DNA of 43,567 nucleotides from Chloroflexota bacterium (GTDB taxonomy: Bacteria; Chloroflexota; Dehalococcoidia; Lucifugimonadales; Lucifugimonadaceae), in assembly GCA_022567135.1 (NCBI GenBank), contig JADFHP010000006.1:1-43567 (forward strand), in the 5' to 3' direction. Below the pieces are notes generated by a model, which was given only the letters and a program-made list of their open reading frames with translations, did no database searches and was not told where the DNA came from. The translations under genes and the position numbers were made by a program. This document shows, piece after piece, positions 12,760-16,037 of this stretch (within the stretch, counting starts at the first letter, position 1; every line of letters starts with the position of its first letter).

Positions 12760-13719
12760 TCAGTTCTTCAGCAGCACTACCACGCGGCGTTGATCACCAT
12801 GGCCGCGGCTCTGGGTGTCCACGTCCGGGTGATCGACGAGTGTGATGTGGATGATGCGCCGGTCGGCCGCGTTCATGGGCTGGAGAGTCTGTGACTCGCC
12901 GCTACTGAGCGCGCTCTCGGCGGCCCGCTCGGCTGTATCTCTCAGCGCGTCCTGCCGTCTCTCGCGATAGCCCTCCACGTCGATGGTGATGTATGCCGGT
13001 CGGTCCATCTTCTTGTTAATGACCATATTGACGAGGAATTGAAGTGCCTGGAGCGTTTCGCCGCGCCTTCCGATCAGGAGCCCGGAGTCCTCGCCCTCAA
13101 TCTCAAACGCTACGTCGCAATCATCTGAAATTTCCGACACATAAGTCGTCACGGACACGTCCATGACGGAGAGGAAATAGTCGAGGACCTCGGCCGCCAC
13201 GGGCTCGACCTCCGGATCCGGGCCAGGCGTGTGTACGCGTTGTTCCCGTCGCCTTGGCCCGCTTTCCGGGGCTTCTTCGTCCCGTTCATCATCTGGTGGC
13301 CTGGCTTCGACGTCCGGTGAGGCCTCATCACGCATGGCCGGGCGCACGTCATCACGCATGGCGGGAGGCGCGTCGGCCGGATTGTCGCCGAGACGGGACC
13401 CGGAGCCGCCGCGGCCGCGGCTGCGGCCGCGTCCGCGCCTGCCCTGGCGGCCGCGCGATGATCCTGGCCGCCCTTCCTGTTCCGATTCGGATTCTTGCCC
13501 CGGCTCGGAAGACGGCTCGCCGGTCTGGAGAATATCCTCGTCTACGTCCTCAAGAGGCGTGACATTGATCTCGGCGGGCTCACCGCCGAAACCCAGAATC
13601 CCGGATCTGCCGGGATTAACGACGACGATTTCTACTTCTTCTCGATTTAGATCTAGAGTCTCTAGAGCGAGATCTGTTGCTTCGTCGACGGTTTTTCCGA
13701 TGAATTGGCGCGTCGGCAT
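12760..13719 (-). CDS. jag: RNA-binding protein Jag/KhpB (Jag-N, KH, R3H)
   Basis: A 319-aa RNA-binding protein of the SpoIIIJ-associated type. Domains in order are the Jag N-terminal domain (1-52, GKTVDEATDLALETL...GFGGEPAEI), a long charged linker (60-165) with the RG-rich stretch SRGRQGRRGRGRSRGRGG, a KH domain (about 170-250, GxxG loop IGRRGET) and an R3H domain (about 251-319, RRIIH). The linker is much longer than in Gram-positive Jag and is probably disordered. The ATG is well supported: GGGAGGGG lies about 10 nt upstream. The first 104 nt overlap the end of yidC in another frame. KhpB proteins bind RNA and influence cell-envelope processes; the YidC partnership is conserved. Confidence 0.93.
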   Translation of the reverse strand: MPTRQFIGKTVDEATDLALETLDLNREEVEIVVVNPGRSGILGFGGEPAEINVTPLEDVDEDILQTGEPSSEPGQESESEQEGRPGSSRGRQGRRGRGRSRGRGGSGSRLGDNPADAPPAMRDDVRPAMRDEASPDVEARPPDDERDEEAPESGPRRREQRVHTPGPDPEVEPVAAEVLDYFLSVMDVSVTTYVSEISDDCDVAFEIEGEDSGLLIGRRGETLQALQFLVNMVINKKMDRPAYITIDVEGYRERRQDALRDTAERAAESALSSGESQTLQPMNAADRRIIHITLVDHPDVDTQSRGHGDQRRVVVLLKN

Positions 13720-14569
13720 CGTCTGACGTCCCCTCCCTATCTGAAGTTTCGGTTTCGGCGCCCGTGGTCCCCGAGCCGACGGCAGCCAGCACTGGCTGGT
13801 CAGCCGAACCGGCTGATTTGAACGGGTTCTGCCTGCCTGTAACGAAATACTGAATCACGAATCCTGCGATGTTTGAGAACAGGATGTAGATGGCCAGGCC
13901 TGTTGGGAATTGAAACGTGAAGAACCCGAACATTATCGGCAGCATCCACAGCATGATCTGGTTCGTGGACTGTTGGCGGGGGTCCGTGGGGCGGGTCATT
14001 GTGGTCTTTTGTGTAAGCCACATCGTTCCGCCCACCAGGACCGGGAGCAAAATATTTATCGGCGGCGTCTGTGATGAGACGAGGCCCACCAGGTCCATGC
14101 CCAGAAAGTCGCTGCTCAGAGGCACGGATGAACGCGCCGGATTCCAGGAGTAGAGGAGGCCGTTGAGGTTGGCCATCCCCTCCGGCGTCGGTGGAACCGC
14201 TTTGAACAGGGCTCGGAACAGGCCGAACCAGATTGGCATCTGGATGACGAATGGTCCCAGGCAACCGATAGGCGAGACGCCGTTCTCCTTGTAGAGCCTC
14301 ATCGTCTCCCTGGAGAGGTTCGAGCGCGCGTCCTTGCTTTTGCCCTTGTACTTTTCCTGCAGCGCCTTGATCTTTGGCTGCAGCCCGCTCATGGCCTTCA
14401 TCTGCTTGGTTTGCCTGATGGTCAGAGGAATAAGAGCGAACCGAATCAGGAGGGTGAAGACGATGATGCTCAATCCGAAGTTGTCGAACAGCACGTCATA
14501 GAGGATCGCCAGGCTGTTGACCATCGGGCGCATGATGATCTCGTTCCAGAGAAGGCCGAAGATTTCCAT
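13616..14569 (-). CDS. yidC: Membrane protein insertase YidC/Oxa1
   Basis: A 317-aa insertase of the short Gram-positive/organelle type, placing proteins into the cytoplasmic membrane. The first transmembrane segment contains TLLIRFALIPLTIRQ with the conserved hydrophilic-groove Arg. A charged hairpin, QTKQMKAMSGLQPKIKALQEKYKG, follows. Later segments include GCLGPFVIQMPIWFGLFRAL and MLWMLPIMFGFFTFQFPTGLAIYILFSN. It lacks the large periplasmic domain of proteobacterial YidC and has no lipobox. The C-terminus is a strongly basic tail (RKNRRRSNRSRSRDSRSKSRRSRNRRR), like the ribosome-binding tails of Oxa1. This whole tail is encoded in the 104-nt overlap with jag. Confidence 0.95.
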   Translation of the reverse strand: MEIFGLLWNEIIMRPMVNSLAILYDVLFDNFGLSIIVFTLLIRFALIPLTIRQTKQMKAMSGLQPKIKALQEKYKGKSKDARSNLSRETMRLYKENGVSPIGCLGPFVIQMPIWFGLFRALFKAVPPTPEGMANLNGLLYSWNPARSSVPLSSDFLGMDLVGLVSSQTPPINILLPVLVGGTMWLTQKTTMTRPTDPRQQSTNQIMLWMLPIMFGFFTFQFPTGLAIYILFSNIAGFVIQYFVTGRQNPFKSAGSADQPVLAAVGSGTTGAETETSDREGTSDDADAPIHRKNRRRSNRSRSRDSRSKSRRSRNRRR

Positions 14570-14663: not shown

Positions 14664-16037
14664 TCATCCGCATCGCTCGCCTGACTGGAGCTTCAAGCAG
14701 CCCAGTTGCGACCTATCGCCGATTGAGAACCACTGAAACTCCCGATCAAGGGTGTGGACGTAGATGAGATTGTCTTTGACTACCGGCGATGCTTTCACGC
14801 CCGAGTTTGTGGCGAACTTGCCCAGTACCTGCCCGTTCGCGGTAGCGACGATCCATACTGCGTCTTCGCCGGAAGGTACGGCGAGCAGCCGGTCAGGCCG
14901 GCCGCCGCTCGGCGGCGGGGGACCATCGTAAATTGCAGGCTGCGCCACGATCTGGCCCTCGATCCCGGCCGGCGCCGCCCATACGGGCTGGCCGGAATCT
15001 CTGTTCAAAGCGAACACGTCACCGTCGAGCGTCGCGACGTAGACGATGTCACCGTCCACAACGGCTTTTGCCCATATCCAGGCCTTCGCGTCGAATTTCC
15101 ATTCGCCGGCGGGTTCGAGCGTCCTGCCGGTGGTGTCCCGAATGCGGGCTTCGAGGTCGAGCGCGTAGAAGCTGCCCTCAAAGTCGCCGACATACAACTT
15201 TCCGTCTACAAGCAGGGGGTCTGCTGTTGCCGCGCCATCCGTCTTGAAGCTCCATATGAGGCGGTCATGGAGGGTATCGATCTTTTCGGATATTCCTTCG
15301 GAAAGATCCACCGCGTAGACGTGGCTGTCCATGGATGTGAAATATGCCGTATCGTCGACGATGATGGGAGAGCCCCAGATCCGCTTTTCGACCGGGAACA
15401 TCCACTTGATACGGTCGCCGTCTACTCTGCCCGGGGTGGTGTCCAGGGCGATCAGGAAGCCGCCCGGATGTTTGTCGCCGCCGATCTCGGACGTTCCGAA
15501 AATCAGGGTGTCGCCGTAAAGAGCGATGTCGCCCACGATTTCGGTTTCGATGTTGAACCATCGGTTGAAGTCACCGCGGCTCTGCGGATCCTGGTTGGGC
15601 GGGGTATACGGTCTGAGGTCTCCCCAGAGATAGCCCGAACTGTCTCGCCGCTGCAGATTGAGGTTCTCGGCGTTTCTGTTGATCGCTATTACGTTTGCTT
15701 CGCAGTCGGCACTGCGGCAGTCATAGGTTGAGAGGAAGATGGCGTCTTCCGTGATTATCGGTTTGCCGTAAAACTTGCCGACTCCCAGGTCATCCCCCGG
15801 GAAAAATGCATCTCCGGAGTCCAGGAACCGGCCTGAATCCTGATCGAAAACGCGCAGGTCGCCATTCTTATCGGCGACGAAGATGCCGTCTTCGGTCACC
15901 ACCGGCTCGGCCCAGCCGCCACTCGGCGACAGTCCGCCGGTGCATGCGAGCGCGGCAAAAGCGAAGAGCGCGAGAAGGGCGGGAAGAAATTGCCGCACGC
16001 GGGGATTTGGACGGGATTGCCGGGGTTGCGAATTCAC
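14664..16037 (-). CDS. Beta-propeller (PQQ-like/BamB-like) lipoprotein
   Basis: A 457-aa exported protein. The signal sequence ends in a lipobox (FAALAC, Cys32). Repeated blade motifs follow: VTEDGIFVADKNGDLRVFDQDSG, VDDTAYFTSMDSHVYAVDLSEG, VDGKLYVGDFEGSFYALDLEA, VDGDIVYVATLDGDVFALNRDSG. These match PQQ-enzyme/BamB-type repeats, giving perhaps seven or eight blades. No catalytic residues of PQQ dehydrogenases are evident, so a scaffolding role is more likely. It lies between yidD and yidC, with its ATG overlapping the yidD stop by 4 nt and 94 nt before yidC. That position suggests it takes part in protein export or envelope assembly; this is inference. Confidence 0.85.
   Translation of the reverse strand: MNSQPRQSRPNPRVRQFLPALLALFAFAALACTGGLSPSGGWAEPVVTEDGIFVADKNGDLRVFDQDSGRFLDSGDAFFPGDDLGVGKFYGKPIITEDAIFLSTYDCRSADCEANVIAINRNAENLNLQRRDSSGYLWGDLRPYTPPNQDPQSRGDFNRWFNIETEIVGDIALYGDTLIFGTSEIGGDKHPGGFLIALDTTPGRVDGDRIKWMFPVEKRIWGSPIIVDDTAYFTSMDSHVYAVDLSEGISEKIDTLHDRLIWSFKTDGAATADPLLVDGKLYVGDFEGSFYALDLEARIRDTTGRTLEPAGEWKFDAKAWIWAKAVVDGDIVYVATLDGDVFALNRDSGQPVWAAPAGIEGQIVAQPAIYDGPPPPSGGRPDRLLAVPSGEDAVWIVATANGQVLGKFATNSGVKASPVVKDNLIYVHTLDREFQWFSIGDRSQLGCLKLQSGERCG

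Follow-up and report, generated by a model that had tools for sequence, protein, structure and literature searches.

The yidC/jag junction

The window, a 43,567-nucleotide stretch of contig JADFHP010000006.1, comes from a Dehalococcoidia (Chloroflexota) MAG. It carries yidC and jag on the same strand, with the end of yidC running into the beginning of jag. The features of this junction are as follows:

12760-13719, minus strand: jag/khpB, RNA-binding Jag protein of 319 aa (ORF and Pfam domains Jag_N, KH_KhpA-B and R3H)
13616-14569, minus strand: yidC, membrane protein insertase of the YidC/Oxa1/Alb3 family, 317 aa (ORF, Pfam and full-length homologues in the order)
13616-13618, minus strand: stop codon TAA of yidC
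13616-13719, minus strand: dual-coding overlap of 104 nt, comprising the yidC C-terminus and jag codons 1-34, with jag in the +1 frame
13619-13699, minus strand: codons of the basic YidC tail RKNRRRSNRSRSRDSRSKSRRSRNRRR (translation)
13700-13840, minus strand: YidC linker from the last membrane segment to the basic block, uncharged to acidic and not basic (translation)
13717-13719, minus strand: start codon ATG of jag
13730-13737, minus strand: Shine-Dalgarno-like GGGAGGGG of jag, located within yidC and ending 10 nt before the jag ATG

The identities of both genes are secure. Residues 31-243 of YidC match the Pfam domain 60KD_IMP (PF02096) with an E value of 4.6e-48 and 163.7 bits against a cut-off of 35; by this membrane domain the protein is assigned to the YidC/Oxa1/Alb3 insertases, and its insertase activity is predicted. 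Jag harbors Jag_N (residues 6-54), KH_KhpA-B and R3H in this order, all above the Pfam cut-offs, as a member of the Jag/KhpB family, and its Jag_N is the single match within the window genome. The Jag_N domain and the GGGAGGGG motif 10 nt upstream together fix the position of the jag start, in agreement with an earlier sequence-only reading that had credited jag with a Shine-Dalgarno sequence and a conserved N-terminal domain.

In the overlap, a yidC codon starts at the wobble position of a jag codon and takes its other two bases from positions 1 and 2 of the following jag codon, so that the YidC residues are set largely by synonymous positions of jag. The first overlapped residues, DADAPIH, precede the 27-residue basic block RKNRRRSNRSRSRDSRSKSRRSRNRRR, and the entire Arg/Ser-rich tail of YidC is encoded by the overlap. 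The same reading had proposed a 104-nt overlap encoding this basic tail, which proved correct with the exact span 13616-13719.

The surroundings of the junction display further features. The Jag linker between Jag_N and KH (13400-13500, minus strand) contains an Arg/Gly-rich stretch, SSRGRQGRRGRGRSRGRGGSGS, and Jag therewith also has a basic, probably disordered segment of its own. Between yidD and yidC lies a gene (14664-16037, minus strand) for a PQQ/BamB-like beta-propeller protein whose N-terminus has a lipoprotein-like signal; it overlaps yidD by 4 nt (16034-16037) and breaks the usual rnpA-yidD-yidC-jag order. RNA structure at the jag start was nothing out of the ordinary (z +1.36).

Conservation of the overlap

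The search of the order covered 60 genomes from 35 genera and 24 families, with yidC found in 58 and a readable junction in 57. An overlap of at least 86 nt in the same frame is present in 56 of these 57, the exception being G057 (L051). Taken together, the samples at order, class and phylum level yielded 209 distinct junctions, all from Chloroflexota. Among the 156 from the class Dehalococcoidia, 96 overlap by 86-179 nt, 42 by 20-85 nt and 18 not at all; the jag start of each relative was set to whichever start codon lay closest to where it was expected, and individual lengths may err by a few codons. Of the 53 junctions from other classes, none reaches 86 nt, a single one falls between 20 and 85 nt, and 52 have less than 20 nt or no overlap, with overlaps of 4 nt or 14-17 nt being frequent. 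All overlaps of at least 20 nt are in the +1 frame, and both frames are open and conserved in this register in 138 of the 156 class genomes. The comparison of junctions that the sequence-only reading had suggested thus finds the overlap conserved in both the order and the class, with a tail that stays basic. In family f37, represented mostly by single-contig genomes of 1.4-1.9 Mb, the overlap measures 89 or 113 nt.

Since 18 class genomes lack the overlap, it is not essential. Several of these (L051, L063, L095, L138 and L149) are surrounded in the tree by lineages with the overlap, which is consistent with secondary loss. At the other extreme, L072 (G090) has the longest overlap, 179 nt, and the end of its yidC tail is Gly/Pro-rich rather than purely basic.

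Selection on the yidC frame

The content of the yidC frame was compared with a null in which the Jag protein is held fixed and synonymous codons are redrawn with the codon usage of the locus itself, estimated in each case from a few hundred codons. Over the 96 long-overlap genomes, the yidC frame contains no stops where 220 are expected, 1186 Arg+Lys instead of 735, and 103 hydrophobic, Cys or Trp residues instead of 401. When an open frame is required, the expectation for Arg+Lys rises to 873 and is still exceeded in 88 of the 96 genomes, while the hydrophobic count lies above expectation in 0 of 96. The z-scores of this randomisation treat related genomes as independent and are hence naive. 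A stronger argument is the internal control provided by the next 18 jag codons past the yidC stop, in the same genes, genomes and frame, where Arg+Lys (389 vs 388.7 expected), stops (63 vs 65.4) and hydrophobic, Cys or Trp residues (367 vs 356) all follow the null.

The edge at the yidC stop is sharp. In the last 5 codons before it, Arg+Lys amount to 283 against 145 expected and hydrophobics to 3 against 63, whereas the first 4 codons after it give 68 against 63 and 79 against 77, respectively. An equivalent edge is present in the intermediate-overlap genomes, at the earlier yidC stops that these have. The first ~8 overlapped codons display no Arg+Lys enrichment, which fits a basic block beginning slightly inside jag.

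How much an open frame reveals depends on base composition. Among the 21 genomes with less than 40% GC, the yidC frame would be open by chance with a median probability of 0.0037; in the GC-rich window this probability is about 0.28, so that openness alone proves little there, and the evidence lies in residue choice and conservation. With an open frame required, the window overlap encodes 15 Arg+Lys against 7.4 +/- 1.8 expected, and no Gly against 5.7. The same jag codons in overlap-free genomes of other classes give 418 Arg+Lys against 409 expected; Gly falls below expectation also without an overlap (256 vs 340). At the level of codon choice, this pattern shows that selection in the yidC frame favours Arg/Lys/Ser and disfavours stops and hydrophobics precisely up to the yidC stop.

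Divergence between sister pairs offers a second view of this selection. Changes at 4-fold sites of jag affect 77 of 305 sites (25%) inside the overlap and 1028 of 1961 (52%) outside, with the lower value inside in all 22 pairs (Mantel-Haenszel p = 2.5e-19). For intermediate overlaps the values are 20% and 48%. Control pairs without the overlap display no significant difference between the corresponding regions (72/159, 45%, vs 585/1120, 52%; p = 0.21). In the closest pair, the window and L002, the reduction is small (3/18 inside vs 34/135 outside), and in the next pair it is clear. A drop in synonymous variation over the first 35 jag codons had been predicted from the sequence, and it was found as a halving inside the overlap that is absent from the controls, pointing to selection on the second frame beyond that imposed by the first. 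The excess over randomisation and the halved synonymous change together indicate that the first 30-35 codons of jag specify the tail as a second product under selection.

Position and origin of the basic tail

The YidC tail after the membrane domain is alike in genomes with the overlap and in overlap-free genomes of other classes, with a median of 66-75 aa and a net charge of +7 to +8; class genomes without the overlap have shorter tails with a net charge of +6.7. What differs is where this charge is located. Without an overlap, the 20 YidC residues directly before jag carry +6.0 to +6.3. With an intermediate overlap the mean charge is +0.6 in these residues and +7.0 inside jag, and with a long overlap it is -3.3 and +9.6, the last 25 residues of YidC holding a mean of 11.6 Arg+Lys. 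As charge is lost before jag and gained inside it, the basic block has been shifted into jag rather than created by read-through. From this comparison, the basic tail predates the overlap, and its coding position is new.

Loss of the stop into jag would by itself give about 28% Arg+Lys, close to the about 26% found in the 18 codons past the stop. A special basicity latent in the jag start was therefore rejected, as out-of-frame codons past the yidC stop are about equally basic. The sequence-only reading had suggested that the tail may stem from read-through into an alternative frame of jag. This accounts for the present coding site but not for the existence of the tail, since overlap-free classes already have one of similar charge; intermediate-overlap genomes, which carry the basic block across the junction, likewise speak against it. 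The further suggestion of that reading, that the tail was then kept because it binds ribosomes, is plausible.

Because the YidC+Jag tree was built with FastTree and has many open forks, the order of the evolutionary steps is one that we infer. The tree needs 11 changes between long and not-long overlaps, and on other class branches short overlaps of 26-53 nt are numerous. Independent tree pairs associate the overlap with charge loss before jag in a mean of 4.3 cases for and 0 against, too few for significance.

The Jag side of the overlap has a composition of its own. Codons 13-34 in long-overlap genomes are acidic, with about 30% Asp+Glu, and specify more Glu and less Arg, Gln and Pro than in other classes. 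Co-evolution of this acidity with the overlap was considered and rejected; the groups differ in composition, but independent tree pairs give no support.

Proposed role and alternative explanations

We consider it quite likely that the junction is a genuine, ancient dual-coding terminal overlap with both frames kept by selection and the tail a probable ribosome anchor. The first 30-35 codons of jag would be read again, one frame shifted, as the C-terminal tail of YidC. In the ancestor a basic YidC tail would already have ended beside jag; successive losses of the yidC stop may then have carried the frame into jag, where selection on wobble positions would have tuned the added residues as charge disappeared from the segment ahead of jag. 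Jag would be translated from its own Shine-Dalgarno sequence within yidC, with translational coupling as a possible side effect of this gene layout. The tail itself, to judge from studied basic-tailed YidC proteins, may act as a flexible anchor on the cytoplasmic side, in contact with the ribosome while membrane proteins are being inserted. The window YidC has the basic tail after the last membrane segment that is a feature of ribosome-binding YidC tails, its own binding being putative. Tails of Streptococcus mutans YidC1 and YidC2 and the long tails of Rhodopirellula baltica and Oceanicaulis alexandrii YidC contact ribosomes or ribosomal proteins (PMC8595059). In these as in the window protein, the last membrane segment is followed by a charged tail in the cytoplasm; encoding inside the next gene is not described for them there (PMC8595059), and for the window tail ribosome binding is predicted. 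By analogy, ribosome binding would be the likeliest role of the tail.

Explanations that deny the tail a function of its own have to account for the wobble pattern. An overlap serving translational coupling or gene packing, with tail residues as a by-product of out-of-frame jag, would suit the adjacent, co-directional genes, the jag Shine-Dalgarno inside yidC, the 4-nt or 14-17-nt overlaps common at this junction in other Chloroflexota, and the fairly basic default reading of out-of-frame jag. Coupling, however, predicts no preference for Arg/Lys/Ser over Gly and hydrophobics at wobble positions, let alone one that ends at the yidC stop, and termination-reinitiation is strongly distance-dependent, usually with overlaps of 1-4 nt (PMC10666635), so that 100 nt are unneeded; we regard this explanation as improbable. 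Codon bias at the 5' end of jag, through avoidance of mRNA structure, could mimic such a pattern, as unusual codon use is common in start regions, and it does account for part of the Gly deficit, which is also seen without the overlap. It was nevertheless rejected as very improbable: the same codons in overlap-free genomes of other classes show the expected Arg+Lys, codons past the yidC stop follow the null, and shorter-overlap genomes lose the effect at their own earlier stops. Least credible is a sequencing or assembly error or a misannotated start, the verdict reached for other long co-directional overlaps by Palleja et al., who dismissed all 715 above 60 bp in 338 genomes as mispredictions or unconserved (PMC2478687). 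The same frame recurs across independent assemblies and many families, single-contig genomes included, the jag start is fixed by Jag_N, and the yidC frame is under selection. Conservation excludes this explanation and, with 56 of 57 order relatives overlapping, also the loss of an earlier yidC stop through a sequencing error, which the sequence-only reading had named as fatal to its proposal.

The identity of the partner is a separate matter. Arg-rich disordered tails bind many polyanions, and a selected basic peptide directed at anionic membrane lipid, mRNA or Jag instead of the ribosome is unlikely but deserves to be kept in mind. The acidic jag codons 13-34 fit such a target; on the other side, it is the ribosome that basic YidC tails have been described to bind (PMC8595059), and the rise in Asp+Glu in Jag does not follow the overlap across independent branches. 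A narrower version, in which the Arg-rich tail binds the Glu-rich start of Jag or its own yidC-jag mRNA, is a long shot. If true, a positive peptide and its acidic partner would arise from two frames of one sequence, and binding to the mRNA would lock the overlap in place.

Relation to known overlaps and implications

The gene neighbourhood rpmH-rnpA-yidD-yidC-jag is home to both yidC/jag and the rnpA/rpmH overlap of Thermus. The latter is likewise a case of same-strand dual coding, but there the whole of rpmH lies within rnpA, and the two start codons share a single initiation site (Feltens et al. 2003, cited in PMC9841429). In contrast, yidC/jag places an upstream C-terminus over a downstream N-terminus, with separate starts. 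The longest overlap accepted as real by Palleja et al., holD/rimI of Enterobacteria with up to 56 bp, is like yidC/jag a case in which two well-characterised co-directional genes overlap at their ends and the overlap is conserved (PMC2478687). It differs in that yidC/jag spans 86-179 nt in 96 genomes class-wide, with selection on the upstream frame tested up to the stop. The topology of yidC/jag is that of phase-1 unidirectional overlaps, for which the preferred mode of origin is lengthening of the upstream gene at its 3' end (Fonseca et al., PMC3887535; Sabath et al., PMC2542354); these models account for overlap lengths without invoking selection, whereas for yidC/jag selection on the extended residues is measured. 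No description of the yidC/jag overlap was found in the open-access literature.

The junction counters the survey verdict that no co-directional bacterial overlap above 60 bp is real (PMC2478687): it joins core conserved genes, extends over 86-179 nt in most of the class, and has both frames under selection, which in the upstream frame breaks off sharply at the stop. The junction further suggests that a functional protein segment can move whole into the next gene with its overall charge kept, and genomes at several intermediate overlap lengths still exist for study. Were overlaps of this sort trimmed in annotation, or recoded, a core membrane-insertion protein would lose part of its sequence.
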